DNA of 64,000 bases. Source: a virus. Under the pieces are notes generated by a model. That model did not search any database. It saw nothing but the letters and a program-made list of their open reading frames with translations, and was not told where the DNA came from. Shown here in pieces: positions 12,601 through 36,481 of the stretch (the stretch's first letter is position 1; each line of letters opens with the position of its first letter). The stretch lies in the IMG/VR virus record IMGVR_UViG_3300009034_000033, positions 1 to 64,000 of that record; one strand, given 5' to 3'. A program made the position numbers and the translations under genes.

Positions 12601-13701
12601 CTATCTCCATTTAGATTGCAAAAAATCATATTCCTTCTTGGTATAAATTTCTATAAATTCAACCTCAATATCTCTCCAAGAAGGATAACCGGTTTTGAAA
12701 ATCTGTTTCACAGAATACCTAGCTCCCGCCATCCCCATCTTGATTGCATCCCAAGTATACATACCAGCCATAAAACAAGCAGAATAAATCGCGGCTAAAG
12801 TATCGCCAGCTCCACAAGGATTGATGTTACCCAAAACAGGTTTAGTTGGAATATCAATTCGTTCCATCTTATTAACATTCGTATAAATAGAAACCCCTTC
12901 TTCTTTTCTTGTCAAAATTATATACTCGCTATGAGTTTTATAAAAGAGACGACTAACATCTATATTCGAAGGATCAGTCATCAGTCCTGCATCAAGTAAT
13001 TCATTCGGTTTCTCTTTCTCGCTATCTATGTACACATCAACTTTTTTTAATTCTTCTTGGTTAAGAATAAGATGGGCTATATCATCAAAAGTATGTATTC
13101 TTTCTCTTGAGGTTCCGAAAATCCCTATCCCTAAAGTCTTCCCTAAAGAAACAACTTTCTCTATAATTCTGGTAGTACAGACTCCATTACCTTCTTCATT
13201 ATAGTCAGCAATGACTATAAAATCACATTTAGGACCAATGATAGAAATATTCTCCAAAAGTTGTTTCTTTACTCGTTCAGAGATCGGATCGGTTGCAGAA
13301 TCAATTCTCATCAAATGATGGCCAATAGGTAAGAAATGCTTTCCAAATACAGGTGTTTCATCTTCAACCATATAGTCTGTATGGATTCCTTTATTTAATA
13401 ACAATCTCTCAAGAACAACCCTATCCCAATCAGTTCCAAGAATATCGCTATAATCAAATGGTTTTCCCCAAATGCCACAAGCCCAGGTTTCAACGCCTAA
13501 ATGGGCTAGATTAAAAAGAAGATTGCCTCCACCACCAGGATTATAGGTTCTTATTTTTTTAGGATACCTGAAAATTGGTAATCCTTCAATCTCTCGAGAC
13601 TCCCCTTTATAAAATCCTATAGTATTTATATCCAGAGCTATATCACCAACAAGGAGACATTTCAAATTTCTAACTTTCTCTTCTAATTGACATAAACTCA
13701 T
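12601..13701 (-). CDS. PfkB-family heptose-7-phosphate kinase (HldE N-domain-like)
   Basis: 366 residues. NPGGGGNLLFNLAHLG (about 53-68) corresponds to the substrate loop of HldE/RfaE kinases (PGGAANVAxNxAxLG). NPCGAGDTLAA (about 297-307) is the PfkB active-site signature with the catalytic Asp. In bacteria this enzyme phosphorylates heptose-7-phosphate at O1 to give the 1,7-bisphosphate. The C-terminal nucleotidyltransferase domain of HldE is absent. GmhB-like (15752) and GmhA (35876) genes in the same genome supply the adjacent steps, which strengthens the assignment over ribokinase or fructokinase. Confidence 0.75.
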   Translation of the reverse strand: MSLCQLEEKVRNLKCLLVGDIALDINTIGFYKGESREIEGLPIFRYPKKIRTYNPGGGGNLLFNLAHLGVETWACGIWGKPFDYSDILGTDWDRVVLERLLLNKGIHTDYMVEDETPVFGKHFLPIGHHLMRIDSATDPISERVKKQLLENISIIGPKCDFIVIADYNEEGNGVCTTRIIEKVVSLGKTLGIGIFGTSRERIHTFDDIAHLILNQEELKKVDVYIDSEKEKPNELLDAGLMTDPSNIDVSRLFYKTHSEYIILTRKEEGVSIYTNVNKMERIDIPTKPVLGNINPCGAGDTLAAIYSACFMAGMYTWDAIKMGMAGARYSVKQIFKTGYPSWRDIEVEFIEIYTKKEYDFLQSKWR

Positions 13702-14426
13702 TTTTCTTCTTCCTCTATTGGCCGAATCCCGAAAGTCTTGTCGACTACTATTTTGGGGGGATTGAGCAATGTCTGTTTTATTAAAAGTTCTCTCTCTATT
13801 TTGGCTATTTGTGCACGTTTATAATTTTTTCTCCATTTATCCATATAAGCAATTTTGATTTCTTCGGGAGAAAGTTCTCTCTTGAAAAAGATACAATTTA
13901 TAAGAAACCATATCTCTTTCATAATATTGGTAAAAGAATCAATATCTATTTCTGCTCCTTCTTCTCGCCAAGGTCTTTTTCGAAGAAGCTGATTTAACTT
14001 ACCGATTTCTACAGTTGTTCGCCAGAAAAGAGAAGGAAATCCTTGGAGAAATTCCAAGGGCAAAGAATAAGGTTCTCCTATTACTCTTTTTTCTCTCATT
14101 TCACCGAGAAAATTCCATTTGGATAGATCACTCTGTAAATTAGTCAAAATGACTAATTCCAGATAATAGAAGAGACTATCGATCAACTCATCTTTTGGAG
14201 GCCAAAATTCAACCATAGTTTTATTCTCTCCAGCTGCTTCCCAGCAAGCCATATCAGCTTCAGTCAATTCTTGAATAATGCGATAGGAGATAGCTCTTAT
14301 CCAACTTTGTCCCTCCACAGAATCAAGATCTAAAGGAATTTGAACGATACCTTCCAGATCTTGGTAAAGGACCAGTAGTTCGCCATGTTTAGCTAGAAGG
14401 AATTCAGTGTCTAATTTTTCTGCCAT
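13698..14426 (-). CDS. All-alpha dUTPase-like protein
   Basis: 242 residues. RIIQELTEADMACWEA (ExxE-type) and KDELIDSLFYYLEL (ExxD with a following hydrophobic helix) are arranged as in dimeric dUTPases of the MazG superfamily. Towards the C-terminus LSPEEIKIAYMDKWRKNYKR matches the conserved Y..K...N..R helix of that family. It would convert dUTP to dUMP, feeding the thymidylate synthase-like enzyme and limiting uracil in DNA. The ATG overlaps nothing upstream; the stop overlaps the kinase gene start. Confidence 0.6.
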   Translation of the reverse strand: MAEKLDTEFLLAKHGELLVLYQDLEGIVQIPLDLDSVEGQSWIRAISYRIIQELTEADMACWEAAGENKTMVEFWPPKDELIDSLFYYLELVILTNLQSDLSKWNFLGEMREKRVIGEPYSLPLEFLQGFPSLFWRTTVEIGKLNQLLRKRPWREEGAEIDIDSFTNIMKEIWFLINCIFFKRELSPEEIKIAYMDKWRKNYKRAQIAKIERELLIKQTLLNPPKIVVDKTFGIRPIEEEEK

Positions 14427-14453
14427 TTATTTTATTCTCCCTTTTCTTCAATA

Positions 14454-14900
14454 TTAGGAATGTATTACTTCCCAACATCTATTAACATCTATCCCAGCTT
14501 CTTGTAATAAATCCAAGGATTTATTGGAAGGATAATCTTCCCAATAAGCAATTTCTTTTATTCCTGCATTTATTATAAGCTTGGCACAGGAAAGGCATGG
14601 TTTATGAGAGCAATACAGAATTGCTCCTTTCAATCGAATTCCCTCTCGAGCTGAATTTGCTATACAATTGGCCTCAGCATGTGCCCCTGGACATTTATCC
14701 AAATTTTCTCCAGCTTTTGAATCTCGACGAACACAGGTCTCTTTTGTACAATGTTTAATCTTTCTTGGAACACCATTATAACCTGTCCCAATTATTGAAC
14801 CATCTTGGGAAGTGACAATGGCTGCAGTCTGACGTCTTAAACAAGTGGATTCTGATTTAAGAACATCAAGCATTAGTTTGATTGTGTGAAGATCTTTCAT
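14454..14900 (-). CDS. dCMP deaminase
   Basis: 148 residues from the ATG at 14900; a TTG nine bases earlier is in frame. HAEAN (His74, Glu76) and PCLSC (Cys102, Cys105) form the zinc site and proton shuttle of the cytidine/deoxycytidylate deaminase fold. TGYNGVPR is the typical substrate-binding stretch, and the insertion with extra Cys/His (HCTKETCVRR) is common in phage T4-type enzymes. It converts dCMP to dUMP for thymidylate synthesis. Confidence 0.9.
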   Translation of the reverse strand: MKDLHTIKLMLDVLKSESTCLRRQTAAIVTSQDGSIIGTGYNGVPRKIKHCTKETCVRRDSKAGENLDKCPGAHAEANCIANSAREGIRLKGAILYCSHKPCLSCAKLIINAGIKEIAYWEDYPSNKSLDLLQEAGIDVNRCWEVIHS

Positions 14901-15168
14901 CTTCTTCAAATTCCTTTGCTGTAATTTGAGCTTCTATTTCTTCTAAAGTTCGCTGTTCCCCAGCTTCAAATCCTTCTTCGAATCCTTCTCGATATATTCT
15001 TTCCATTTCAATCATAATATCATCAAGCGCTTTATCGTATTCCCAATATCCAAGATTTCCATAATCTACAATATCGATTTTGGATCCTAAAATATCCGCT
15101 ATTTTCTCTCTTTCTGATCTGAGATCTATTTGAATTTCGACAAACCCTTCTGGATTCTGTGTAACCAT
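14866..15168 (-). CDS. Hypothetical acidic helical protein
   Basis: 100 residues, acidic, with a probable amphipathic helix (EGFEEGFEAGEQRTLEEIEA). Not recognised. It overlaps the phosphatase gene upstream and the deaminase downstream, so it sits in a translationally coupled trio. Confidence 0.5.
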   Translation of the reverse strand: MVTQNPEGFVEIQIDLRSEREKIADILGSKIDIVDYGNLGYWEYDKALDDIMIEMERIYREGFEEGFEAGEQRTLEEIEAQITAKEFEEDERSSHNQTNA

Positions 15169-15587
15169 TCTTTGTGTGCCTTATTGATATTGACTCGATC
15201 ATATTTTCTCTTCATCATTTCTTCAACTTCATTGAAGGATCTGGAAAGTTTGTAGCTCAAATAAGTTCCAGCAATAAAACAAGAACGACTAGCCCCTTCC
15301 CAACAATGGACCAAAACATGGGTTCTATATGTAACCAGAAAATCGAGACTTAAAATTGCCATAAGATACTCTTCTAATGTATTCCCTGGTCCATCTGTCA
15401 ATCCAGCATGAATATATGTCAATCTTCGGGAATGTTTTTGGATCTCAAAACAATCATCTGCCACGTTTAAGACCGCTTTTATTGGTGGTTTGAAAAGAGG
15501 ACTATCACCTGCTTTCATTTCCCCTTCAACAAAAGATACTGCTTCTAATGCCTTTCCAACCCAGATCCCTGGAAATATTTCTACCAT
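15126..15587 (-). CDS. Dual-specificity protein phosphatase
   Basis: 153 residues matching the DSP fold. VHCWEGASRS (His94-Cys95...Arg101) is the HCx5R phosphate-binding loop, and Asp65 in GLTDGPGN is placed to be the general acid. N-terminal FPGIWVGKALEA and AVLNVADDC match typical DSP strands. Such enzymes dephosphorylate Tyr/Ser/Thr or, in some clades, RNA 5' ends, sugars or lipids. Its host or phage target is unknown. A GGAGGG SD overlaps the end of the preceding 52-residue gene. Confidence 0.8.
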   Translation of the reverse strand: MVEIFPGIWVGKALEAVSFVEGEMKAGDSPLFKPPIKAVLNVADDCFEIQKHSRRLTYIHAGLTDGPGNTLEEYLMAILSLDFLVTYRTHVLVHCWEGASRSCFIAGTYLSYKLSRSFNEVEEMMKRKYDRVNINKAHKEWLHRIQKGLSKFK

Positions 15588-15591
15588 AATT

Positions 15592-15750
15592 TTATCCCTC
15601 CGGCCAAGCTGAATGTGGAGAAATTGGAGTTATAGAATTCTCGTAATCCTCTCTCCAAAAAGCTATTTGATCCCAATATCTTTTCTTTCCTTCAGCAATT
15701 TCGGAGAGTAAGACTATTAGGATTAGAATTAGTTCTGATTTCTCTTCCAT
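15592..15750 (-). CDS. 52-residue protein
   Basis: A short frame between the GmhB-like and phosphatase genes. It starts one base after the preceding TAA and ends in GGAGGGATAA, which contains the SD of the following gene. The N-terminal half is hydrophobic (LILILIVLL), the C-terminal half polar and aromatic. The tight packing on both sides supports it being expressed. Confidence 0.55.
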   Translation of the reverse strand: MEEKSELILILIVLLSEIAEGKKRYWDQIAFWREDYENSITPISPHSAWPEG

Positions 15751-15751
15751 C

Positions 15752-16489
15752 TTATTCTCTAAAATAGTAATAACAGTTGGGATTAGAACAATAATAGCAA
15801 CCTGTTCCTTTATGTTTAATCAATGGTTGATTGCATTCTTGGCAAAGGAGTTCCTTTCCTTCTTTTTTTCTCCAATTTCTTCCAAGAACTATATCCACAG
15901 CATCCAACAAATCCTCAGCAATGTAGTCAGCACCAGGCGCTATCTTATCTTCCTCAGGACAAAAATTAAGGGGAATATGAACGGTAGTACAACAAGCTTC
16001 ATTTCCTGCTATTATATCTGTTGGATTATCGCCTATCATATAACTTTTTTCAAGTATTATTCCCAGATCCTTCGCTGCTTGGAGAAGCATAGTTGGTTTA
16101 GGTTTTCTACATTCACAAGGAATTGCTGGATCGTGAGGACAGTAATAAGCTTTGATAATTTGACCTCCACTGCTCCATATTTCCCTAGCCATATAAAGGG
16201 AAATATCTTTCAAAGTACCGATTTCCATAAATCCTCTTTCGACTCCTTCTTGATTCGAGATTACTACAATTGGCCAACCTGCTATAGTAAGTTCTCGAAT
16301 TGCTCGCTTTGATCCTGGACGAAAGTAGAATTCATTCATTTCAGTAATAAGATGAAGATCTGGATTACCAGAACTTCTATCGTTCTCATTCACACAACCT
16401 TCTCTATCAAGAAAAACTACCCCTCGATCCAAAGAGTTGAAATCTGAAGGGGGATGGTGCCAAACATCGATCATTGCTAGTCTTGTCAT
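15752..16489 (-). CDS. GmhB-like heptose-bisphosphate phosphatase with zinc ribbon
   Basis: 245 residues. The HAD core resembles GmhB: FLDREG (about 26-31), ISNQEGV, the zinc loop CPHDPAIPCECRKPKP, and GDNPTDIIAG. GmhB removes the 7-phosphate from heptose-1,7-bisphosphate. The second motif I aspartate (usually DxD) is Glu here, which could lower or change activity. After the HAD domain a C-terminal zinc ribbon (CQECNQPL...CYYCSNPNC) is fused, a domain normally seen in topoisomerases and not in GmhB. It may also act on another sugar phosphate. Confidence 0.75.
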   Translation of the reverse strand: MTRLAMIDVWHHPPSDFNSLDRGVVFLDREGCVNENDRSSGNPDLHLITEMNEFYFRPGSKRAIRELTIAGWPIVVISNQEGVERGFMEIGTLKDISLYMAREIWSSGGQIIKAYYCPHDPAIPCECRKPKPTMLLQAAKDLGIILEKSYMIGDNPTDIIAGNEACCTTVHIPLNFCPEEDKIAPGADYIAEDLLDAVDIVLGRNWRKKEGKELLCQECNQPLIKHKGTGCYYCSNPNCYYYFRE

Positions 16490-16501
16490 TTTTTCCTTCC
16501 T

Positions 16502-16594
16502 TTAACATCGAGATAGAATGGCCAAAAGGATAACGATTAGAACCACTCCTAAGCATATGGATAAATTCCAAAAAAATTTAGATGCAAATATCAT
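16502..16594 (-). CDS. 30-residue membrane peptide
   Basis: A very short frame with a strong SD (AAGGAGAA) six bases before its ATG. It encodes one hydrophobic helix (LGVVLIVILLAIL) with a basic, aromatic N-terminus. It lies between the SbcC-like and GmhB-like genes with no room for another gene. Likely a small membrane protein. Confidence 0.5.
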   Translation of the reverse strand: MIFASKFFWNLSICLGVVLIVILLAILSRC

Positions 16595-16605
16595 TGGTAT
16601 TCTCC

Positions 16606-18366
16606 TTAAAGAATCTCTTCTACTGTCGAAATCCCATCCTTTTTTCGAACCATCAAGATTCGATCCCAAATTGCTGAATCTTTCAGATCATCTAAGTGAG
16701 TAATCACAAAAATAGACCGATTGCTAGATTTTTTCTCGCTTTGAAGTAATTCCAGAATTCCATCGCATCCTATGTCATCTAAACCCGAAAAAATTTCATC
16801 TAAGAATAGAAGAGAAACTGGACAAATTTTTTGGATATATGAAGCCAGAGAAAGAAGGATTGCTAAATCAATTCTTTTTCTTTCGCCTCCTGAGAGAGAA
16901 TGGTATCTTCGATCATCTTCTTCGATAAAGACTGAGAAATTTTCTCGTTGATCTCCTGCTTTAGTTTTTCTTCTGGTATCGAAACTTAAATTAAATTCTG
17001 GAGCTAAAAATCCAAGATATTCTTTCCCTTTCAAATTAAGATGAGGCAATGTTTGGTCAGCCAAAAAAGAAATAATTCCCTTAGCTCCAAAATTTTCAAC
17101 CCAGAAATTTACTAGATTTAATTGTCTCTGAAGTTTTCTCCTTTCCCTATCGCTCTTTTTCTTTTTACTTTCTACTTTAACCAAAGCTATTTCTATTTCC
17201 TTAATTCTGTTCTCAGCAGATTTCACGAGATTAAGACTTTGGGAGAAAGATTCCTGAACCGCTACAATCTGAGTTTTTAATCTATTAAGATCTGCATCTA
17301 TTTCTTTTATACCATCCTCTGCTTTCTCTCTGTCCCCTTCCACCTTAAAATAATTGGCTTCTATCTCTGCAAGTTGACTTTGGAACCCTTTTCTTTTTTC
17401 TTTTTTTCTTGCTAATTTTTTATAAGGTAAAGCTGAGCGTAGTTTTTCCCTCTGATCATCTGATACTGCTTGTTTACAGAGAGGACATTGCGCTTCTATT
17501 TGATAAAGAGCGTCCTCGCCCCTAGCAATCTCATCTTCGAGACGTTTTATCCCAGCCAAAAAAGTTTCATATTCGGTCCTTAGGCGTTCACGAATTTTTG
17601 GTTTAAGCCTTTGATCCAGGGAATCGAGTGAAAATTGCAGCTGTGTCCGTTTTTGGGTTAATGCGAGTCTCTCAGCTATAAATTGACGCTTTTTTTCTTC
17701 TACTTCTTCTTGGATCTGTTCGATGGATATTAAAAGATGTTCTTTACTCAAAGTCAGTTCGCTTCTCAAGGTTTCAATTGCCCCTTCAGAAAATGAAATA
17801 TTCTTTTCAATAACCTCTATCCCATTTTCTATTTCCCGAGAAATAGTTTTAGCTAGTTTTTGATAGATCTGAAATCTTTCAAGTCTAAGAATTTCTATTA
17901 GAATTTTCTTTCGGAATTGATCGGCTGAATTGGCAAAAGTTTCAAATCTATCTTGTGGAAGATAGATTGCGGATGCAAAAAGGTCAGAGGAGATAGGGAA
18001 ATTGAAATCTGGTATTCTTTCTCCATTCTTTCCAGTTATCTCGAAAAATGGTTTAGATTTAACTCTCCCTCGATAAAAAGTATAAGGATTTCCTCTAAAA
18101 TCAAAACTAGCTCTGACTAAGCAATCTTCGTTGGGAAGTTTCTCTCTTGAGACTACTTCAGTAGATCTACATCCTCTCGAAGTTTTTCCGAATAGACAAA
18201 AATAAAGGGCTTCGAAGATTGTAGATTTTCCAGATCCATTAGAAGAAGAGAAAGCTGAATCTTCATTCTCTCCCAAAATCAAAGTAAGAGATTTAGGAAA
18301 TAAATCAATATGAGTCTGTCTATGAGAGAAAAAATTCTCTATTTGGATCGACTTAAATTCCAACAT
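16606..18366 (-). CDS. SbcC/Rad50-like recombination ATPase (T4 gp46 type)
   Basis: 586 residues with SMC-like order. Walker A NGSGKST lies near residue 43-49. Two coiled-coil arms flank a zinc hook (CPLC). The signature SLSGGERKRIDLAI and Walker B LLFLDEIFSGLD come near the C-terminus. The size matches T4 gp46 more closely than cellular SbcC. With the gp47-like nuclease it would process DNA ends for recombination-dependent replication. It overlaps the nuclease gene by 14 bases, as is usual for this pair. Confidence 0.9.
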   Translation of the reverse strand: MLEFKSIQIENFFSHRQTHIDLFPKSLTLILGENEDSAFSSSNGSGKSTIFEALYFCLFGKTSRGCRSTEVVSREKLPNEDCLVRASFDFRGNPYTFYRGRVKSKPFFEITGKNGERIPDFNFPISSDLFASAIYLPQDRFETFANSADQFRKKILIEILRLERFQIYQKLAKTISREIENGIEVIEKNISFSEGAIETLRSELTLSKEHLLISIEQIQEEVEEKKRQFIAERLALTQKRTQLQFSLDSLDQRLKPKIRERLRTEYETFLAGIKRLEDEIARGEDALYQIEAQCPLCKQAVSDDQREKLRSALPYKKLARKKEKRKGFQSQLAEIEANYFKVEGDREKAEDGIKEIDADLNRLKTQIVAVQESFSQSLNLVKSAENRIKEIEIALVKVESKKKKSDRERRKLQRQLNLVNFWVENFGAKGIISFLADQTLPHLNLKGKEYLGFLAPEFNLSFDTRRKTKAGDQRENFSVFIEEDDRRYHSLSGGERKRIDLAILLSLASYIQKICPVSLLFLDEIFSGLDDIGCDGILELLQSEKKSSNRSIFVITHLDDLKDSAIWDRILMVRKKDGISTVEEIL

Positions 18367-19345
18367 CTATTTCTTGCTCCTTAGCTTTCTCTATAATTGC
18401 AAAGCCCCATTTCTCCAAACTATCTTTATTCAAATCAGTTTGAACCAGTTCAAGAAATTTTCTAATAAGAGCATCTATTTCGAGATTCCCTTCTAGTCTC
18501 GTTTCAATCTTTGTTTCTGGAAGACTTTTCTCGATAAAGTATTCACAACCAATTGGTATATTTCCATTAAAAGCAGTGAGTTCAAAATCACTTGGGACTT
18601 TGAGTTTTACTATACAATCTTCATAGTCTTCTGGAGAAAAAAGATTTTCTGGATCATATTCCAAGATTTTATATTTTCTAGCTTTCTTTAATTGCACCCA
18701 TTTTAATTTGAGACTTTCTGTATCCAATATAACACAAAGCTTTTTTTGGCCAGTTTCCCCAAAGGAAAGTTGGAGAGCAGAACCTACATAATGATAATTT
18801 CCGATACTTTGATAACGATGATAATGTCCCAGTAATCCTATTTCGAAAAAATCTCTCAATTCCTTAACAGAAATTTCCTCTTTCAATTTCATATCCGTAG
18901 CATCCAAAGTTCCTTCAGCCAAAGCTATGTGACCTAAAAATACATCTGCTTCTTCCCACATAAAGGTCCCTCGATTGAAAGGATAACAGAAAAAAGATTT
19001 TCCGCCAAGTTCCAGCATTTCTGGGATTTCTATCACTTTTCCCAATTCCTTAAAAGGTTCAAGAACAGTATATTTCCCAGATAGATCATGATTACCGACT
19101 AAGAAATATAACTGGAATCGTTCAAGGTCTCGAAAAGCTGAATAAATTCTTGACAGTAGCTCAACAGAAATAGTCCCCACTTTATGAAATAGATCGCCGA
19201 GAGAGAATATTGCAGCAACTTTCTCTTGATCAGCTATTTCTGCTATTTCTTCAATCGTATTTAGAATATCCTCAAGAATTCCTTGAGATGAAAGATTTCT
19301 ATAAGTTTTTCTGGCATGTAGATCAGCAAAAAATAGTATTTTCAT
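18353..19345 (-). CDS. SbcD/Mre11-like nuclease (T4 gp47 type)
   Basis: 330 residues. FADLHARKT, SLGDLFH and VGNHDLSG are the metal-binding phosphoesterase motifs I-III, and GHYHRYQ and LGHIALAEG supply later histidines. Partner of the adjacent SbcC-like ATPase. The ATG has no purine-rich SD: the preceding bases are CCCCCC-ACAAATCC. The 5' leader forms a 12-bp stem (19359-19370 with 19408-19419), so translation may be controlled. Confidence 0.88.
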   Translation of the reverse strand: MKILFFADLHARKTYRNLSSQGILEDILNTIEEIAEIADQEKVAAIFSLGDLFHKVGTISVELLSRIYSAFRDLERFQLYFLVGNHDLSGKYTVLEPFKELGKVIEIPEMLELGGKSFFCYPFNRGTFMWEEADVFLGHIALAEGTLDATDMKLKEEISVKELRDFFEIGLLGHYHRYQSIGNYHYVGSALQLSFGETGQKKLCVILDTESLKLKWVQLKKARKYKILEYDPENLFSPEDYEDCIVKLKVPSDFELTAFNGNIPIGCEYFIEKSLPETKIETRLEGNLEIDALIRKFLELVQTDLNKDSLEKWGFAIIEKAKEQEIDVGI

Positions 19346-19423: not shown

Positions 19424-20431
19424 TTATTTACCCGCCTTTCCTAATCTCTCCAGAAGATTTTCGATTGATTCTTCTTCATCCTCATCTTCATCCTCATCTT
19501 CATCCTTATCCTCATCGTCATCTTCATCTTCGTCTTCATCTATTGGCTTTTTCTTGGGAGTCCGACTTGGAGTCCGTTTTTTCTTTTTCTTTGGTTTATC
19601 TTCTATCTCATCCTCATCCTCATCCTCATCTTCATCCTCGTCCTCGTCTTCTTCTGGTTCCTTTCTTGCTTTTGATTTTTTTCGAGGTTTATCTTCATCC
19701 TCATCGTCTTCTCTATCATCCCTTCTGCCTTTTTTCTCGATCCAAGCTTCAAGGAGTTCTTCCAACTTATCTGGATCTGTTTCAGGAGAGATAGATCTCA
19801 AATCAAATCGATTCTCAAGCAATTCATCCAAGTCTTCTTGAGAATCTGCGATTGAACTAGGATTTCGTCTGAATCTGATTGAAGGATATTCGGTGTTTAG
19901 TCCAGTTCCTGTTCTTTCCACCGTAACATCAAAACCATCAACCGGATGGACTATATCATCTCCCCAATCTGGATCTCTCAAGTGAGCTAGGAATTCTTTC
20001 AGAAAAGTATTGCCAGAAGAGTAAATCTGGACCCCAGCATCCTCATCTTCCCTATCAAGTATATTGAAGAAAATTCTTCTGGTTCCAGATAATGGATGAT
20101 CTCTGCCTCCCCTTTTTTCCACATATATACAGATTGGACACTTTTTCTTTCCAGGACAAGTCAATGGAATAGGTCCTAGTCCATAATGCAGAAAGACCTT
20201 GCGATAAGGAACCCTTTCTCCGGATAAAGGGGGTAAAACTCGAATTCTATTTTTCCCTTCAGCCGGTTTCCACCAAGGAATATTGTATTCGCCTGATAAT
20301 TCGGCTTCTTGCTGATCATCCTCAACTTCATCCATATCAATTTCATAATCCGGTTCATACTTTAATGCTGCTCTTTTTGCTTTAGCCATTTTTCTCTCCA
20401 ATGCTTGTAATCTTGCCCAATTGCTTCTCAT
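19424..20431 (-). CDS. gp32-like single-stranded DNA-binding protein with very long acidic tail
   Basis: 335 residues. WWKPAEGKNRIRVLPP, KVFLHYGLGPIPLTCP and KKCPICIYVEKR match the OB-fold and zinc site of T4 gp32-like proteins. From about residue 240 the chain becomes alternating acidic (DED runs) and Lys/Arg/Pro blocks, ending in ENLLERLGKAGK. gp32 has a short acidic tail that recruits replication partners; here it is roughly a hundred residues. The repetitive codons make a poly-Ser shadow frame on the other strand that is not a gene. It overlaps the U32-like gene by 4 bases. Confidence 0.82.
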   Translation of the reverse strand: MRSNWARLQALERKMAKAKRAALKYEPDYEIDMDEVEDDQQEAELSGEYNIPWWKPAEGKNRIRVLPPLSGERVPYRKVFLHYGLGPIPLTCPGKKKCPICIYVEKRGGRDHPLSGTRRIFFNILDREDEDAGVQIYSSGNTFLKEFLAHLRDPDWGDDIVHPVDGFDVTVERTGTGLNTEYPSIRFRRNPSSIADSQEDLDELLENRFDLRSISPETDPDKLEELLEAWIEKKGRRDDREDDEDEDKPRKKSKARKEPEEDEDEDEDEDEDEDEIEDKPKKKKKRTPSRTPKKKPIDEDEDEDDDEDKDEDEDEDEDEEESIENLLERLGKAGK

Positions 20432-30666: not shown

Positions 30667-30765
30667 TCTGAAGAGATTTGGCTGCTCATTCAGCTTCAAG
30701 CCACCACGCTTGAAGGATAGAACATAAACCACCTCCTTTTTATGTTCTATTTCGCTTTAGTCAGA
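30667..30765 (-). ncRNA. Hammerhead-ribozyme-like RNA, copy 1
   Basis: Minus-strand order: C-GAAA (30754-30750); a 12-bp stem III (30750-30739 with 30728-30717, AUAG.../...CUAU) whose loop is AAGGAGGUGG; a single C at 30716, the cleavage-site position; an 8-bp stem I (30715-30708 with 30701-30694) with loop GUGGUG; then CUGAAUGA (30693-30686). G-C and C-G pairs open stem II, with UCUGA/UCAGA (30761-30765 with 30667-30671) closing it. Compared with the hammerhead core CUGAUGA there is one extra A. It begins at the stop codon of the 30757 gene. Activity is untested. Confidence 0.65.
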
Positions 30766-31095
30766 GTGAATGGATAGAGTTGAATCTTGAGAGATTGCTT
30801 CTCCAGTTTCAATGTCTATCATTATTCCATTTCTAATTTTCACTGTTTTTGGCCAATTATCAAAACCGATTTGAATCTTCTCTCTAGCTGCTCTAAGAGC
30901 TGATCTATCTTCAGTAAATTGACCAAGATTAGTGATTCTGGTCTCTCCGTGATGCAGATCACATTCGATCAACAAATAGATTTCCCCTTCCCCTCCTTTA
31001 AGAATACTATCCACAAAAGCTGCTGCTTCTACATAAGTATTCAAAGGATAGCGGGCTTTATCTCTCAAATCTCTGATTGCTTCTTCTCTAGTCAT
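30757..31095 (-). CDS. Hypothetical protein
   Basis: 112 residues, alpha/beta. It contains YLLIECDLHHGETRITNLGQFTEDR-like strands with a His-His pair; no family identified. Its last codons and stop form the 5' part of hammerhead-like element 1. Confidence 0.5.
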   Translation of the reverse strand: MTREEAIRDLRDKARYPLNTYVEAAAFVDSILKGGEGEIYLLIECDLHHGETRITNLGQFTEDRSALRAAREKIQIGFDNWPKTVKIRNGIMIDIETGEAISQDSTLSIHSD

Positions 31096-31128
31096 GGTTT
31101 AATCCGTCCCTTCTATATTCTTAATACA

Positions 31129-31398
31129 TTATCCTAACAAACTTCCTACAGCTTTGGCATGATTATCTCTTGCTCTAGCAAACTGAAATCCTCTGGTTTT
31201 ATCGGTAAACTTCTTATATATGCCAGTCGGTTTATAGAACACTATTACACAATCATCATACAAATAGGCTTCTACTTCTCGACTTCTATATTCATAAAGT
31301 TTCTTGAATCCCTTTGGAGCACAGTTAACTTTTTCTCCATCATCATACCAATTTATTTTTGCCTCAAATTCAGCGGCTTTTATTTGATGATCATTCAC
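31129..31398 (-). CDS. Hypothetical protein (GTG start)
   Basis: 89 residues from a GTG with GGAGGT at good spacing, the SD being inside the end of the preceding 27-residue gene. The beta-rich core (VEAYLYDDCVIVFYKPTGIYKKF) is vaguely like KTSC-type small domains, but I would not assign it. Confidence 0.5.
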   Translation of the reverse strand: MNDHQIKAAEFEAKINWYDDGEKVNCAPKGFKKLYEYRSREVEAYLYDDCVIVFYKPTGIYKKFTDKTRGFQFARARDNHAKAVGSLLG

Positions 31399-31402
31399 TT
31401 TT

Positions 31403-31486
31403 CTACCTCCATCCTCGTTTGAATAGAAAACCGAGAAAAAGTTCGATCGCCATTCCCGAGGAAATAATAACTACCGAATAAATCAT
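31403..31486 (-). CDS. 27-residue membrane peptide
   Basis: A tiny frame with a very strong SD (AAGGAGGGGG). It encodes a hydrophobic peptide ending in basic residues (FKRGWR). It ends just before the GTG of the next gene and begins after hammerhead-like element 2. Its good signals make it a plausible small membrane protein. Confidence 0.5.
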   Translation of the reverse strand: MIYSVVIISSGMAIELFLGFLFKRGWR

Positions 31487-31501
31487 TCTAACCCCCTCCT
31501 T

Positions 31502-31610
31502 TTTTATCTGACGAACATTGGCTGCTCATTCAACCCAAATCCACCACGATGTGACGATAGAGACCGGAATCATTTCAAATCCCTCCTCTTCATTTTAGTT
31601 CTGATAATCA
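31502..31610 (-). ncRNA. Decayed hammerhead-like RNA, copy 2
   Basis: Aligns with copies 1, 3 and 4: CUAU-C with the C at 31556, the GUGGUG loop at 31547-31542, and UUGAAUGAGCAGCC. However, core C3 is U, the CGAAA segment reads CUAAA (and contains the upstream gene's stop), the first stem I pair is G-G and another pair is C-U. Stem III is imperfect. It probably no longer cleaves. Confidence 0.5.
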
Positions 31611-31939
31611 AAAAATTCTATTTTACACTTGCATTTTTTAGATTTCAAGATTTCAATCTGTTCTTCGAGAGTCTGCCATTCCTCTACATTACCTCCATAG
31701 CAAACTCTTTTTTTCATTTTCATCGGATTAAAACCACGTGAAAGCATTTCCTTCCTAACCAGGTAAAGGATATGCCATAATTTTTCTGGACAGTTTTCGA
31801 ATACAAGAGTTTGTGGATGATTTCTCCATCCTTTAAGATTATTAGTTATTACAGAATAGATTGTCCATCCTTCATGCCACATAGATCTTAAATGTATGTC
31901 GCATAAATATGGAATCAACTTTTCATCCCATATTCTCAT
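31595..31939 (-). CDS. Hypothetical protein
   Basis: 114 residues from the ATG at 31939, which has AAAGGATGAT upstream; an earlier in-frame ATG at 31975 lacks an SD and lies right after hammerhead-like element 3. Rich in Trp, Cys and Lys near the C-terminus (KSKKCKCK). Not recognised. Confidence 0.5.
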   Translation of the reverse strand: MRIWDEKLIPYLCDIHLRSMWHEGWTIYSVITNNLKGWRNHPQTLVFENCPEKLWHILYLVRKEMLSRGFNPMKMKKRVCYGGNVEEWQTLEEQIEILKSKKCKCKIEFFDYQN

Positions 31940-31984
31940 AGTATCATCCTTTATTAACCAACGACCGTAACCCATAAAAGTATT

Positions 31985-32065
31985 CTGAATATTGGCTGCT
32001 CATTCAGCCCAAATCCACCACGATTTGGGGATAGGGGGTTAAACCCCCTATTTCGCAATATTCAG
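31985..32065 (-). ncRNA. Hammerhead-ribozyme-like RNA, copy 3
   Basis: The most compact copy. C-GAAA (32055-32051); 9-bp stem III (AUAGGGGGU/ACCCCCUAU, loop UUA); cleavage-position C at 32030; 8-bp stem I CCCAAAUC/GAUUUGGG with loop GUGGUG; core CUGAAUGA (32007-32000). Stem II has two pairs, an AGCC bulge, then nine pairs (32057-32065 with 31985-31993). Every stem sequence differs from copy 1 but pairing is retained. It lies about 70 nt past the 32134 gene. Confidence 0.68.
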
Positions 32066-32071
32066 TTGTAG

Positions 32072-32136
32072 ATCTATCGTTTTAGCTCCATTTTATTATA
32101 TCTCCTTAGTTAGATTTCCTTGATTAAATCTCCTTA
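32072..32136 (-). repeat. Three tandem AACTAAGGAGAT-like repeats
   Basis: On the minus strand the motif AACTAAGGAGAT, AATCAAGGAAAT, AACTAAGGAGAT recurs every 14-15 nt right at the stop codon of the 32134 gene. The last copy would serve as SD for a five-codon frame (MELKR). No larger gene follows before the ribozyme-like element. Confidence 0.4.
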
Positions 32137-32325
32137 GTTGGAGAATGGGAATTTCCCAAGTTTGAGAAATCCGAGACGAACTTTGGCTTCAGAAACCCGC
32201 AAAGATCCTGCTCTTTTTCCATTTATTCGTCTTATCATTTCTATCCAACCTTTTCTGCCGATAGACTGATAAGATATGCATGGATCATGCTTATTCAGAT
32301 TTCTGATCAGTCTTTCTTTTCTCAT
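32134..32325 (-). CDS. Small basic protein, paralogue of the 34142 gene
   Basis: 63 residues from an ATG with GGGGGAAAAG upstream. It starts MRKERLIRNLNKHDP and continues with YQSIGRKGWIEMIRRI, parallel to MRKEKLLKLLNERDP and YESAGRGLIRMFHKKI in the 34142 protein. Function unknown. Confidence 0.55.
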   Translation of the reverse strand: MRKERLIRNLNKHDPCISYQSIGRKGWIEMIRRINGKRAGSLRVSEAKVRLGFLKLGKFPFSN

Positions 32326-32359
32326 TTTTCTTTTCCCCCTTATCTGAATTAGATTTTTC

Positions 32360-33247
32360 TTACTTTTGCCTTGGTAGAAGATTGTGAGATTCCTTATACT
32401 TAGCATAATACCAAGATATGGATTTAGCTGAAGTCTTGGAATTAAATTCTTTCCTTGCTTCTTCTGCGATTTCAGTATAAGATTTCTCAGTTTGATTGGA
32501 ATCTGCAAGAATATCAAGGACAAAGCTTTGAATGGTTACTTTCTTCGATTTCTTCTCTTTATCCACTGCTTTCCTTAGAGTATCTTTCCAACCATCAACA
32601 TATCCTTCTAAGATGTTAGTTGTACCAGTCATAAGTAGACCGATTTGCCTAGAATCCAAAGGTTTTCTCTTATCCCAGAGGACAGAGATTTTTTCAACTT
32701 CAAATTCTATTTCTTCCTTTCCTCGAGAATCCAAGGAAATTGCTACTACAACCTCGACTATTTCGTTTGAGAGTGTATAGCGCCTTTCTTTGAGACTTCC
32801 GGTATAATGTGTAACTTTGAAATCCGGAAATAGTACCTTTACTTTTTCCAGATCAGATTTTTCGGTCTCTTCTTTTTCTCTTCTTCTTCTAAGAACAGCA
32901 TCATACTCAAACATCATTTTCTTAGTCTTTTGAACTAGTTTTTCTTTATTGGGTTTATTCCAAGTTCGATTTTTCAGGTTATAAGAAAGACCTATCCAAG
33001 ATTTGAGTTTAAGCTTATACTCAGAAGATGAAAAGGTTATTCTCATTCCACTTGGAACGTTTCTGAATTTATAGGAACTATCATAAGTTGGATGGATATT
33101 TACGAAGATCACGCCTTCTACAGTATTTATTTCAACAGTAGTTTTGTCTCTTTCTTTTCTTACTGCTAAACCACTGGTTCTCAACATTTCAAAAACTTCG
33201 TGGGCTATTTCCAATTGAGTCTGATTCGAATATTTTTCATTTTTCAT
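32360..33247 (-). CDS. Hypothetical protein with C-terminal WYxxxY domain
   Basis: 295 residues. The N-terminal 200 residues are beta-rich and basic, unknown. The C-terminal 60 (YTEIAEEARKEFNSKTSAKSISWYYAKY) match the domain in the 26165 protein and resemble a small helical DNA-associated domain. The leader holds the perfect palindrome CGCGTGTACACGCG beside the SD TAAGGAG. Confidence 0.55.
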   Translation of the reverse strand: MKNEKYSNQTQLEIAHEVFEMLRTSGLAVRKERDKTTVEINTVEGVIFVNIHPTYDSSYKFRNVPSGMRITFSSSEYKLKLKSWIGLSYNLKNRTWNKPNKEKLVQKTKKMMFEYDAVLRRRREKEETEKSDLEKVKVLFPDFKVTHYTGSLKERRYTLSNEIVEVVVAISLDSRGKEEIEFEVEKISVLWDKRKPLDSRQIGLLMTGTTNILEGYVDGWKDTLRKAVDKEKKSKKVTIQSFVLDILADSNQTEKSYTEIAEEARKEFNSKTSAKSISWYYAKYKESHNLLPRQK

Positions 33248-33262
33248 TGAATTGTCTCCTTA

Positions 33263-33276
33263 CGCGTGTACACGCG
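33263..33276 (-). promoter_or_regulatory. GC palindrome before the SD, copy 1
   Basis: CGCGTGTACACGCG is a perfect 14-bp palindrome just upstream of TAAGGAG and the ATG at 33247. Upstream flank AACTTATCATTTAAT is shared with copy 2. Confidence 0.6.
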
Positions 33277-33303
33277 ATTAAATGATAAGTTTTTAATCTT
33301 TCT

Positions 33304-33398
33304 GATGAGATGGCTTACTCATTCAGCTTACACCAACCACGATGTAAGGATAGGACATGAATCACCTCCTTTCAAGTCCTATTTCGTTTTTCTCAATC
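33304..33398 (-). ncRNA. Hammerhead-ribozyme-like RNA, copy 4
   Basis: C-GAAA (33386-33382); stem III AUAGGAC then a mismatch then UGAA, paired to UUCA and GUCCUAU, with loop AGGAGGUGA; cleavage-position C at 33349; 8-bp stem I CUUACAUC/GGUGUAAG with one U-G and loop GUGGUU; core CUGAAUGA (33326-33319). The second stem II pair is U-A where copies 1 and 3 have C-G. Stem II is closed by GAU-GAGA/UCUC-AUC (33391-33398 with 33304-33310). Its 5' end overlaps the stop of the 33393 gene. Confidence 0.65.
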
Positions 33399-33629
33399 TA
33401 CAACACAAGTAGAGGTCCCTCGACCACCGTGTTCTCTATCTTCAACTGTCATTCGGTACCTTGTGCAAGGCCCATTTTTGCCAGAGGTATACCATTCAAC
33501 ATATACTTCATCAGTAGAAGGTTCATTGTAAAGTTTTACTGGAATGCCCATACAAAGTCTTGACAATTCGGCAACCAGCATATAAAGATCCTCAATCTGT
33601 TTTCCTGTGTTCAAATCCATCGCTATCAT
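33393..33629 (-). CDS. Hypothetical protein
   Basis: 78 residues, alpha/beta (VKLYNEPSTDEVYVEWYTSG). Not recognised. Leader type D (GAATTTGAAAGGGGAAAAG) precedes the ATG at 33629. The stop codon is part of hammerhead-like element 4. Confidence 0.5.
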   Translation of the reverse strand: MIAMDLNTGKQIEDLYMLVAELSRLCMGIPVKLYNEPSTDEVYVEWYTSGKNGPCTRYRMTVEDREHGGRGTSTCVVD

Positions 33630-33660
33630 TTTTCTTTTCCCCTTTCAAATTCTATTTATT
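33630..33660 (-). promoter_or_regulatory. Conserved leader D, copy 1
   Basis: AATAGAATTTGAAAGGGGAA then AAGAAAA directly before ATG. Two near-identical leaders lie at 33847 and 34093; the AAAGGGG is the SD. Confidence 0.5.
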
Positions 33661-33663
33661 GAT

Positions 33664-33846
33664 TTACTTATACTGTTTGGTATATCGCTCATATTCTGGT
33701 AACAGGTCATTGACACATTCATTGCAATAGAAGATGTGATCTCCTATTTTTCTATGTGCATCCTTAAAAATTGGATGCTTTGAGTATCTACCAAAAGTCA
33801 TTACTGATCCATGCTTTTCGCATATTGGAGATTTTTCTTTAGCCAC
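33664..33846 (-). CDS. Small zinc-ribbon-like protein
   Basis: 60 residues. CEKHG near the N-terminus and CNEC near the middle could form a zinc ribbon (C-x2-H ... C-x2-C). The C-terminus is Tyr/Lys-rich. Leader D precedes the ATG. Confidence 0.55.
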   Translation of the reverse strand: MAKEKSPICEKHGSVMTFGRYSKHPIFKDAHRKIGDHIFYCNECVNDLLPEYERYTKQYK

Positions 33847-33880
33847 TTTTCTTTTCCCCTTTCAAACTCTGTTTATTTTT
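33847..33880 (-). promoter_or_regulatory. Conserved leader D, copy 2
   Basis: AAACAGAGTTTGAAAGGGGA followed by AAAGAAAA and the start codon. Differs from copy 1 at only a few positions. Confidence 0.5.
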
Positions 33881-33885
33881 TCGTC

Positions 33886-34092
33886 TTAGCCATCAACCCA
33901 AGTTGATGCTCGATTTCTGATACTAGCGGCATCTCCGATTAAACCTCTGAAAATTTGACTGATCTTTTCCGAAGGAATTGAAGTATTTGCTACTGCTTCT
34001 TTCAAGTTATCAATACCCTCCTGAATTTTCTTAAGATCTCTCTCCATTAAAGGGATAACATATTCTTGGATTGTTTCTCGTTTGACTGCCAT
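33886..34092 (-). CDS. Small helical protein
   Basis: 68 residues, almost entirely helical (VIPLMERDLKKIQEGIDNLKEAV), possible coiled coil. Not recognised. Leader D precedes its ATG. Confidence 0.5.
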   Translation of the reverse strand: MAVKRETIQEYVIPLMERDLKKIQEGIDNLKEAVANTSIPSEKISQIFRGLIGDAASIRNRASTWVDG

Positions 34093-34128
34093 TTTTCTTT
34101 TTCCCCTTTCAAATTCTATTCATTGGTT
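34093..34128 (-). promoter_or_regulatory. Conserved leader D, copy 3
   Basis: GAATAGAATTTGAAAGGGGA followed by AAAAGAAAA and the start codon. Third member of the leader family. Confidence 0.5.
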
Positions 34129-34141
34129 GTTGATCTGTTAC

Positions 34142-34312
34142 CTAAGAAAAGTAAGTGTAAAGTCTTTCTCTCATCTCATTCAAAGTAAAAGGACCGTGTC
34201 CTCTTCCTTTGATTTTCTTATGAAACATTCTGATCAAGCCACGACCAGCTGATTCATACCCGAATATAGGATCTCTTTCATTTAGCAATTTCAAAAGTTT
34301 TTCTTTTCTCAT
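34142..34312 (-). CDS. Small basic protein, paralogue of the 32134 gene
   Basis: 56 residues from the ATG at 34312, placed after the CGCG palindrome and AAGGGAG. MRKEKLLKLLNERDP is the shared N-terminus with the 32134 protein. A longer frame exists upstream but would run through the palindrome. Confidence 0.55.
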   Translation of the reverse strand: MRKEKLLKLLNERDPIFGYESAGRGLIRMFHKKIKGRGHGPFTLNEMRERLYTYFS

Positions 34313-34330
34313 TTGAATTTGCTCCCTTCG

Positions 34331-34342
34331 CGCGTGCACGCG
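34331..34342 (-). promoter_or_regulatory. GC palindrome before the SD, copy 2
   Basis: CGCGTGCACGCG, perfect palindrome, next to GAAGGGAG. Flank AACTTATCATCTAAT matches copy 1 with one change. Confidence 0.6.
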
Positions 34343-34361
34343 ATTAGATGATAAGTTTTGA

Positions 34362-34625
34362 TTAGCTGATACTGAATTTGAGTTCGTCTTCGAGTTCGAT
34401 TACCTTGATTCCCCTTCTTTCCACTCTTTTCTTTAGAGCTGTATATTCAACTTTCCAAGAGGATTCAAGTTGGTAGATTTTCCTATTCATCCAAATTTCA
34501 TTCAACCTAGTCATCCATTTAAGATCATGGTAATCGAATTCCTTTGAAATTCTCTGTTCTAATTTTTCAATCTGTAGCTTCTGTTGATAGAGCACTTTGC
34601 TTATTGTTTCTTTTGTAGTAGCCAT
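34362..34625 (-). CDS. Helical protein
   Basis: 87 residues from the ATG at 34625, which follows the third CGCG hairpin and AAGGAG. Coiled-coil-like throughout (ISKVLYQQKLQIEKLEQRIS). The in-frame extension to 34694 crosses the hairpin and is probably not translated. First gene after the leader at 34.7-35.0 kb. Confidence 0.5.
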   Translation of the reverse strand: MATTKETISKVLYQQKLQIEKLEQRISKEFDYHDLKWMTRLNEIWMNRKIYQLESSWKVEYTALKKRVERRGIKVIELEDELKFSIS

Positions 34626-35022
34626 TGAAATTCTCCTTCGCGCGTATGCGCGATATAGATGATCTTTTGTCCAGCGTAAAATAGAAGTTGGCATACTAGG
34701 ACTCGCACATTAGAAAGAGACATTCTTTCTAACCTTCTATCTGAAATCTTATATCCGAAAAGTTTTAACTCGATCACTATCTGAACAGGTCGTGTTAGGG
34801 ATGATCGTCGGATTTTATCTAATGAATGAAGAGTAACTATCCGATCTTTTCTTTATGGTTGAACTTTGTTTCAATTCCCTTTTTTCAGATGTCTCCGGAT
34901 TTCCCTTTTAATGAAGGTCTGTTCACTTCAATTGGCCTCTTGGGAATTGAGGTAGGTTGTCAATGGTCAACCTTTTTTCAACTTTCATTCATTTTTCAAA
35001 AGAGCTTGTTGTTACATCAGTA
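34626..35022 (-). other. About 400-nt leader without genes
   Basis: No convincing gene. It would be the transcribed leader downstream of the putative promoter at 35.02 kb. It contains an 8-bp hairpin TTAGAAAG/CTTTCTAA (34710-34732), a longer-range TCGGAT/ATCCGA pairing near 34800-34845, and GGTTGACC/GACAACC-type pairing near 34955-34975. Confidence 0.4.
34639..34652 (-). promoter_or_regulatory. GC hairpin before the SD, copy 3
   Basis: CGCGC (34639-34643) pairs with GCGCG (34648-34652) around a 4-nt loop, next to GAAGGAG. The spacer differs from copies 1 and 2 but the arms remain complementary. Confidence 0.6.
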
Positions 35023-35031
35023 ATTATACCA
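35023..35031 (-). promoter_or_regulatory. Putative extended -10 promoter
   Basis: TGGTATAAT on the minus strand is a perfect extended -10 (TGnTATAAT). No good -35 hexamer is seen, as is common for this class. It reads into the operon at 34.6-30 kb. Repeats R1 and R2 lie 40-110 bp upstream and could be activator sites. Confidence 0.5.
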
Positions 35032-35065
35032 TAAAAAGGGGATTTCGCGAAATAAAAAATGGACC

Positions 35066-35133
35066 TCGTAAAACCTGGAATAGCCGGGGTTTAGGAAATC
35101 CTATTCTGTAAAGACTGGAATGGCAAGGGTTTA
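35066..35133 (-). repeat. Direct repeats R1 and R2
   Basis: Two copies of a 27-bp block, core GCTATTCCAGGTTTTAC and GCCATTCCAGTCTTTAC on the minus strand, 38 bp apart. A third copy with full dyad symmetry (TGTAAAG...CTTTACA) is at 36960. All lie upstream of leftward operons. Confidence 0.5.
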
Positions 35134-35137
35134 GAGA

Positions 35138-35160
35138 AAGGCCTTTTTGAGGCCTTTTCT
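35138..35160. terminator. Bidirectional hairpin AAAGGCCT/AGGCCTTT
   Basis: An 8-bp stem with a five-base loop, followed by T residues on the plus strand. It lies between the terminator at 35228 and the promoter region. Confidence 0.45.
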
Positions 35161-35211
35161 TCAAAAAAAGCCTTTTTTAAGATAAAAGTCTTGCTCTACA
35201 AGACTTTAGAA

Positions 35212-35253
35212 GAAAACAAAAAGAAAACCGCCCTAATAAGTTCATTAGAGCGG
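35212..35253 (-). terminator. Intrinsic terminator after the 35301 gene
   Basis: Stem CCGC + CTAAT (35228-35237, one mismatch) pairs with ATTAG + GCGG (35244-35253). On the minus strand it is followed by TTTTCTTTTTGTTTT, 50 nt past the stop of the 35301 gene. Confidence 0.7.
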
Positions 35254-35300
35254 CCTTCTTCTACTCTCCCCTTGGGCTTAGGAGCCCCGATCAGATTTGA

Positions 35301-35699
35301 CTACTCATCTATAAGTTCTTCACGATCTTCCACATCCACAATCTCTCTGGCTTCGCTTTTTGAAGATCCGTAAAGAGTTTTCTCCATTTCCTGTTCAAAC
35401 TGTCTTAAGAAATGGATCTCCTTTTGGATGTATTCCATTCTTTGGACTTGGTGGGATATTTTCTCTGAAATATAAAAGAGATCTGGAAGATCTTGATCCG
35501 GTATTTCTGTTGATCTCTTACTTTCCTTTGGTGAAGACGGAAGGGTTTTTCCGATCAAAGGACCAGTCATCCTACCCAGCTTTTCCGTTGCAGTCTTTAC
35601 ACCATGGTAAGTAGATTGAACAAGATCATCCATTCTTTTCATTTCATCTTTGATCACTTGAACTATATTCTCAACATTTCCTATGTCTGCTGAATTCAT
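35301..35699 (-). CDS. Hypothetical coiled-coil protein
   Basis: 132 residues. Helical N-terminus (MNSADIGNVENIVQVIKDEM), a Pro/Ser-rich middle and an acidic tail (VDVEDREELIDE). Not recognised. Its leader folds into a three-way-junction RNA. Last gene of the gmhA operon, followed by an intrinsic terminator. Confidence 0.55.
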   Translation of the reverse strand: MNSADIGNVENIVQVIKDEMKRMDDLVQSTYHGVKTATEKLGRMTGPLIGKTLPSSPKESKRSTEIPDQDLPDLFYISEKISHQVQRMEYIQKEIHFLRQFEQEMEKTLYGSSKSEAREIVDVEDREELIDE

Positions 35700-35729
35700 T
35701 ATCGTCTTCCTTTCCCTTTAGAAGCGACT

Positions 35730-35822
35730 GGGAAAGTTGAAGATTAAAGGTAAGTGACACAGTCTCTTACTTTCGTGATATTATTCCACCGGATCTTTTA
35801 GTGGTTGGAATCTTCAACTCCC
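35730..35822 (-). ncRNA. Three-way-junction leader RNA
   Basis: P1: 35736-35745 with 35809-35818 (10 bp) extended by GGGA/TCCC. P2: CCAC/GTGG (35786-35789, 35801-35804). P3: GTAAG and GAC with GTC and CTTAC (35750-35770) extended by AAA/TTT. It sits in the 176-nt gap between gmhA and the 35301 gene. It matches no riboswitch class I know and has no hammerhead core. Confidence 0.5.
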
Positions 35823-35875
35823 CCAATTTTGCAGTATTTGCAGTAACATATAGACTATCTCGCAGTCTCAAAATT

Positions 35876-36481
35876 TCATGTGTCTAAAGATACAAACTGC
35901 TCGATTAAATCAGCAACGATATGTAGGATAGTAATATGGACCTCCTGGATCCTCAAAACATCATTGCTAGGTATTATGATTCTAAAATCAACTAGATCCT
36001 TTATCGTGCCTCCATTGTTACCTAAGAGACCAATAGTATTTAGACCTATTTCTTTAGCCGCTTCCAATCCTCGTATTACATTCTTGGAATTACCAGAGGT
36101 TGAGATTCCTATTGCTAAATCTCCATCTTTTCCCAAGGCTTCGATTTGACGAGCGAAGATTTCCGAAAAGCCAAAATCATTAGAAAGAGCGGATAGAATT
36201 GAAGAGTTAGTAGTTAAAGCAATAACTGGTAAAGGAACACGTTCTATTCTACATTTTCCTACCAATTCGCCAGCAAAATGTTGAGCATCTGCTGCACTCC
36301 CCCCGTTTCCGAAGATATAGATTTTTTGATCATTCTTTATATGCCAGTAAATCTGTTTCGCCATTTCAGCTATTTCTTTAGGCATATTTTGAGCCACTGT
36401 TATCTTCAGATGAGCAGACTCCATAAGTTGTTTTTTGACCTTTCCACTTAACCGAGTTAGAGACCAATAAGCTTGAGTCAT
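35876..36481 (-). CDS. gmhA: Sedoheptulose-7-phosphate isomerase
   Basis: 201 residues from an ATG overlapping the preceding stop (ATGA). SIS-fold hallmarks: IFGNGGSAADAQHFAGELVG, ISTSGNSKNVIRGLEAA, and EVHITILHIVADLIE with the catalytic His. Length and motifs match GmhA throughout. It converts sedoheptulose-7-P to D-glycero-D-manno-heptose-7-P, the substrate of the PfkB kinase at 12601. Phage gmhA genes are known but uncommon; together with kinase and phosphatase they form a near-complete pathway. Confidence 0.88.
   Translation of the reverse strand: MTQAYWSLTRLSGKVKKQLMESAHLKITVAQNMPKEIAEMAKQIYWHIKNDQKIYIFGNGGSAADAQHFAGELVGKCRIERVPLPVIALTTNSSILSALSNDFGFSEIFARQIEALGKDGDLAIGISTSGNSKNVIRGLEAAKEIGLNTIGLLGNNGGTIKDLVDFRIIIPSNDVLRIQEVHITILHIVADLIEQFVSLDT

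Follow-up and report, generated by a model that had tools for sequence, protein, structure and literature searches.

The DNA analyzed here, bases 1 to 64,000 of the 64,722-base IMG/VR record IMGVR_UViG_3300009034_000033 (the window, meaning this whole 64,000-base stretch), has a GC content of 37% and is, judging from its genes, that of a tailed phage. On its minus strand lie genes for three enzymes of heptose metabolism: a GmhA-type sedoheptulose-7-phosphate isomerase (35876..36481), an HldE-type (RfaE domain I) PfkB kinase of 366 amino acids without a nucleotidyltransferase domain (12601..13701), and a GmhB-type HAD-IIIA phosphatase in which Glu30 replaces the second catalytic Asp (15752..16489). 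The original prediction had placed these families at these positions, and the profile searches described below confirmed it. We use the labels GmhA-type, HldE-type, and GmhB-type, rather than claim proven membership, because none of the three proteins reaches its equivalog cut-off. The enzymes are homologous to those of the GmhA-HldE-GmhB-HldD route of Escherichia coli K-12 and match its first three reaction types; the window differs from E. coli in having no HldE C-terminal nucleotidyltransferase, no HldD, and divergent residues. The codon use and composition of the three genes are ordinary for the contig.

The isomerase matched TIGR00441 at 196.7 bits (2.2e-58), was matched by solved phosphoheptose isomerases at up to 3e-47 (PDB 1tk9), and showed 43% identity to E. 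coli K-12 GmhA. E83 and H193 were invariant in an alignment of four sequences and are the counterparts of E65 and H180 of E. coli GmhA, which we take to be the catalytic Glu and His. Counted from a TTG start, the open reading frame (ORF) reaches 36514; an ATG at codon 12, preceded by a purine-rich AAAGGGAAAGGG stretch, is the likely start and gives the coordinates 35876-36481, in agreement with the original assignment. A second ORF (8028-8903) labeled as a phosphoheptose isomerase in PHROGs was not counted, as its motifs are HAD-like and not those of an SIS isomerase. A homolog of this ORF adjoins an HldE-type kinase and a nucleotidyltransferase in another viral record (G010), where it matches the BT0820 HAD family.

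For the kinase, rfaE_dom_I ranked first (93.6 bits, 1.2e-26), and the best non-HldE family was tagatose kinase at 29.4 bits; the identity to E. coli K-12 HldE was 27%. A home-made profile built from 32 bacterial HldE rows scored the window kinase at 113.6 bits, E. coli HldE at 409.5 bits, and the kinase of a sister phage (G028, described below) at 159.6 bits. The E. coli paralogs scored lower with this profile (PfkB 80.7, PsuK 76.3, RbsK 70.4, FruK 57.9, KdgK 17.9, and Gsk 2.8 bits), and every one of 50 shuffles scored −1.3 or less. When we considered the 33 near-invariant columns (at least 95% conserved among 48 HldE rows), the window kinase kept 24 and the G028 kinase 28, compared to 9-17 for six E. 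coli PfkB paralogs. The HldE positions K106, R118, D120, D151, and Y152 (E. coli numbering) are retained. An AlphaFold model of the kinase (pLDDT 83, pTM 0.87) found HldA (4e84) as its best structural match (Z 35.4, root-mean-square deviation 2.2, 305 aligned), with ribokinase the first match outside HldA (Z 30.1); Foldseek concurred in placing HldA first (5e-23 vs 1.5e-18). Single-sequence searches with the kinase gave no match at 1e-3 in the PDB (phmmer), none in 50,697 phage records (tblastn), and none in the viral contigs. We read the protein as a fast-evolving HldE-type kinase, with its substrate predicted from sequence and model.

The phosphatase was matched best by PRK08942, the GmhB model (129.1 bits, 1.3e-37, compared to 50.5 bits for the HisB N-terminal domain), passed the cut-off of the wider histidinol-ppas domain (103.9 vs 84.15), and showed 33% identity to E. 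coli K-12 GmhB. It keeps the CxH...CxCRKP loop, with C117, H119, C125, C127, and K129 aligning with E. coli GmhB; the CxH...CxC residues form the zinc loop, and the Lys is the motif-III Lys. At its C-terminus is a Cys-rich (zinc-ribbon-like) tail of a kind that E. coli GmhB lacks.

The kinase and phosphatase genes belong to a single minus-strand run (16489 to 12601) in which the gaps between genes range from −44 to +27 bases. Downstream of the phosphatase gene come, in order, a small ORF, a gene for a dual-specificity phosphatase-like protein (15126..15587; PF00782, 3e-12), another small ORF, a dCMP deaminase-like gene (14454..14909; PF00383, 6e-19), an ORF (13698..14426), and then the kinase gene, whose first 4 bases lie within that ORF. 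The product of 13698..14426 had no Pfam match and no useful match in a phmmer search of the PDB. The GmhA gene stands apart from this run, beside tail genes; it shares a four-base overlap with its upstream neighbor, and three small ORFs separate it from the tail gene at 37763-39301, which is located upstream. The proposal that the three genes occupy separate operons thus holds for GmhA and fails for the kinase and phosphatase.

The steps that would activate the heptose were not recognized. At E values up to 10, the 64,722-base record contained no CTP_transf_like (PF01467) nucleotidyltransferase, with 14 of 14 control genomes being positive, and neither the record nor G028 contained a PF00483-type nucleotidyltransferase. 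The record, which is a fragment, also gave no match to rfaE_dom_II, and the six frames of the window held no HxGH motif. A search for HldD returned a single match in this same fragment (66.6 bits), an SDR at 51678..52634 on the minus strand. We ruled out this protein as HldD; it is closest to UDP-glucuronate decarboxylase (UDP-xylose synthase; 4lk3, 1e-34, vs 1.3e-9 for HldD, 4ej0). As originally predicted, the nucleotidyltransferase half of HldE and a clear HldD are both missing from the sequence at hand, a statement that applies to a fragment only. The record is linear without terminal repeats, and its right end interrupts an ORF that is still open and weakly matches methyltransferases; the absence of a gene is therefore weak evidence. 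Library scans took in about 35 of some 85 window ORFs, so that a nucleotidyltransferase of a new family could still be encoded.

The strongest support for the trio came from a relative. Using the major head protein (58047..58967, minus strand; phrog_1005, 1e-47) as the sole query, we obtained two contigs with ∼50% identity. One of these, G028 (IMGVR_UViG_3300037424_002340; 40,908 bases), matches nine proteins of the window structural region, carries a Mu-type portal, and encodes all three kinds of protein: a GmhA at 192 bits, a kinase of the HldE type at 152 bits, and, at 44.7 bits, a HAD protein resembling GmhB. No PF01467-type nucleotidyltransferase was present at E values up to 10 in its 40.9 kb, which is again a fragment. 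The second contig (11.5 kb) contained no heptose gene of the trio. The loci are shuffled between the two phages: the distal tail gene is followed by GmhA in the window and by the kinase in G028, where GmhA instead adjoins a homolog of the window tail gene at 49648-50625. Among other relatives, GmhA was found in 0 of 15 identified by the DNA polymerase, many of them fragments, and no heptose query matched at 1e-3 or better in 15 further loci related by capsid or tail genes, most of which are fragments. The original proposal of a dispersed phage route from sedoheptulose-7-phosphate to heptose-1-phosphate is supported by the sequences, by the kinase model, and above all by the G028 trio; its activation gap applies to the fragment only, and its dispersal was not upheld for two of the three genes.

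We also compared the window with 26 other viral records (27 in all), picked by kinase or GmhA and including near-duplicates. A GmhA-type protein was present in nine records, rfaE domain II in 19, and a histidinol-ppas/GmhB domain in two, so that records in this sample usually combine a kinase with a nucleotidyltransferase, and the window shows the reverse. The other record with a GmhB domain, G023 (IMGVR_UViG_3300027969_002550; L129:3938-6546), encodes in a row HldD (242 bits), kinase (137 bits), nucleotidyltransferase (104 bits), and GmhB (133 bits). It resembles the window as a viral contig with GmhB and an HldE-type kinase; it differs in that its genes are clustered and accompanied by a nucleotidyltransferase and HldD, and in that GmhA was not found in it. 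A record named 'Bacteriophage sp.' (MT835828), one of seven records matching GmhB, contains both GmhB and GmhA and was rejected as phage evidence; it looks like a bacterial polysaccharide locus, with ORFs that by eye are GHMP-kinase-like, an NTP-transferase-GmhB fusion, and flippase-like.

Between the head and tail genes of the window lies a group of minus-strand genes for sugar modification that comprises the SDR described above, an RMNT/CmcI-type O-methyltransferase-like gene (53337..54152; PF04989, 2.5e-38), a fusion with a class I methyltransferase at its C-terminus (55172..56683; PF13489, 2.9e-21), and a GT9 (heptosyltransferase-family) domain protein (56562..57956). The last of these matched PF01075 (4.1e-12, 46.4 bits vs a gathering score of 22), and its nearest solved structure is WaaF (1psw, 2.4e-6), which bears out the GT9 transferase of the original prediction. 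By sequence, this protein belongs to the heptosyltransferase family, with a predicted donor and acceptor, and it is the single link from the trio to a use of ADP-heptose. Among the putative uses named originally (virion or DNA glycosylation, remodeling of the host surface, or countering ADP-heptose sensing), the gene context favors, without proving it, a cassette that decorates glycans over glycosylation of DNA. Sugar-modifying genes appear to recur after tail genes of the 49648-50625 type, because in another tail-gene relative (L147:5083-5787) a TylF-like methyltransferase ORF, identified by eye, directly follows the homolog of this gene.

Read by eye, the C-terminal stretch of the GT9 protein resembles a zinc ribbon of the type commonly found ahead of class I methyltransferases. 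Such a methyltransferase core ends the next ORF (55172-56683), after a separate domain of ∼300 residues, and this ORF shares 122 bases with the GT9 ORF; this layout possibly reflects domain shuffling or a frameshift. ORFs 54250-55164 and 55172-56683 have in common an N-terminal domain (VLNGG..LWYSLLNT) with no Pfam match, possibly a glycosyltransferase. Elsewhere in the window are genes for a head maturation protease (59959) and a DNA polymerase (21773), the latter with matches in at least 5000 phage records. The thymidylate-synthase-like ORF at 2164-3261 lies on the opposite (plus) strand and encodes a long basic C-terminal tail; phage thymidylate synthases match it weakly. The ORF at 19424-20431, whose product has a C-terminal stretch that is very long and rich in Asp and Glu, adjoins two ORFs read by eye as Mre11/Rad50 (SbcD/SbcC)-like.

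We consider it most likely, with a probability of about 0.58, that the phage encodes a partial heptose route that feeds host activation and a surface glycan. The phage enzymes would cover the early steps of the ADP-heptose route, from sedoheptulose-7-phosphate toward heptose-1-phosphate, and thereby would raise the level of heptose-1-phosphate available for activation by the host. Activation to ADP-heptose would be carried out by host HldE or HldC, or by a phage gene located past the contig end. The ADP-heptose would then be used by the phage GT9 protein and the sugar-modifying cassette, resulting in decoration of a surface glycan on either the host envelope or the virion. The phage thus probably boosts or borrows the host sugar supply to decorate a surface. 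What each enzyme does and on which substrate, the step left to the host, the identity of the acceptor, and the benefit to the phage are all inferred in this scheme.

Several points weigh against this interpretation, chief among them the divergent kinase, the Glu residue in the GmhB-type protein, and the incomplete contig. The record of G028 is incomplete as well, and a kinase lacking a nucleotidyltransferase is odd if the host HldE is bifunctional. The scores given above are lower than the curated cut-offs of 209.45 bits for GmhA (TIGR00441 equivalog), 178 bits for the phosphatase (PRK08942), and 345 bits for the kinase (TIGR02198), the last of which is also missed by other viral kinases (152, 137, and 209 bits). 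The kinase lacks R108, K154, and D177 (E. coli numbering), which are nearly invariant in HldE; its end branch corresponds to 7.1 changes per column, and the HldE tree does not support any particular placement of it. The structural model rests on an alignment of HldE rows and is biased toward HldA. In addition, tblastn with the window kinase gave a match in 0 of 17 relatives and missed the G028 kinase, which the E. coli sequence does find, and the kinase tree does not join the two; for these reasons, the window and G028 kinases are perhaps not orthologs. The DxD motif of the phosphatase reads DRE and not DRD, with residue 30 being Glu (codon GAA), and Asp occupies this position in 11 of 11 bacterial GmhBs taken from 80 hldE loci (ten identified by pattern and the eleventh, L029, by eye). 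The second Asp of the HAD DxD motif is the general acid/base, and Glu30 may abolish the activity of the phosphatase. The G028 HAD protein has a weak score, lacks the Cys loop, and matches no Pfam family at E values up to 0.01.

Other readings of the trio have to be weighed against a partial route serving a surface glycan. It is conceivable, if doubtful, that a tailed-phage lineage with GmhA, an HldE-type kinase, and GmhB stops at heptose-1-phosphate, either by host takeover, in which host ADP-heptose synthesis is captured and the host still performs one step, or because the useful product is heptose-1-phosphate (or the bisphosphate) itself. We regard as rather unlikely the alternative that the phage makes ADP-heptose alone, using a nucleotidyltransferase (and perhaps HldD) encoded in a stretch of the genome that the contig does not include. 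Some kilobases probably are missing, because the record has no end repeats and a cut ORF and because the portal region of G028 has no match among the window proteins; moreover, rfaE_dom_II occurs in 19 of the 26 other viral records, a sample chosen by kinase or GmhA with near-duplicates included. The lack of a nucleotidyltransferase in G028 argues against a self-sufficient phage, although that contig is a fragment too.

Still less probable is a role for the kinase, and perhaps the phosphatase, on another substrate such as a nucleoside or nucleotide, leaving GmhA alone in heptose metabolism. The kinase shares its run with a dCMP deaminase-like gene, sits on a very long branch, and has lost HldE residues, and the phosphatase carries Glu at its second catalytic position, all of which would fit such a role. 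Against it stand the five retained HldE positions, the far lower scores of the other PfkB family models, the occurrence of the kinase and a GmhB-type phosphatase in one run, and the clearer HldE-type kinase of G028. We judge it highly improbable that the enzymes supply a heptose-derived sugar for hypermodifying the phage DNA. The thymidylate-synthase-like and dCMP deaminase-like genes of the same phage, the latter in the kinase run, are what such a role would draw on; however, no DNA glycosyltransferase was recognized among the scanned proteins, the GT9, UDP-glucuronate decarboxylase-like, and methyltransferase genes are situated within the structural module, and the sister-phage heptose genes adjoin tail genes.

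Functional heptose enzymes in viruses were described by Tang et al. (2024, Science, 10.1126/science.adk7314), whose survey, according to PMC11461863, started from nucleotidyltransferases and found the phosphatase to be absent in viruses and eukaryotes. The window phage resembles their viral set in encoding enzymes of an NDP-heptose route; it differs in that their set lacks the phosphatase, whereas the phage possesses it and its nucleotidyltransferase was not found. The accessible parts of four further papers describe the role of manno-heptose synthesis in viruses as unsolved (PMC11573728), rfaE in pelagimyophages with a suggested modification of the O-chain (PMC7029224), cyanophage clusters with PfkB kinases and HIGH nucleotidyltransferases (PMC7824862), and heptosyltransferase I in a huge phage (PMC10747093). 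As far as those parts go, the pelagimyophage and cyanophage cases are similar to the window in having phage sugar kinases tied to surface-sugar synthesis, for which exclusion of rival phages has been proposed; they differ by including nucleotidyltransferases and many glycosyltransferases and by showing no GmhA-kinase-GmhB trio (PMC7029224, PMC7824862). Searches of titles and abstracts revealed no phage reported to carry this trio, with supplements and most subscription papers being beyond reach. Phage heptose genes are already known; a GmhB-bearing subset without a nucleotidyltransferase was not found in the literature searched.

GmhB-type genes do occur in viral contigs, as seen in the window and in G023, and the G023 row is an exception to the claim that viruses lack the phosphatase. 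A survey seeded with nucleotidyltransferases can miss viruses like the one described here. The half-pathway, if true, would be the mirror image of the described viral sets, which possess the nucleotidyltransferase without the phosphatase. The presence of three early enzymes, spread over the genome and shifted between loci, together with none for activation, makes the role of viral heptose testable: the prediction is that the phage would depend on a host nucleotidyltransferase and that the acceptor would be located on the host surface or the virion.

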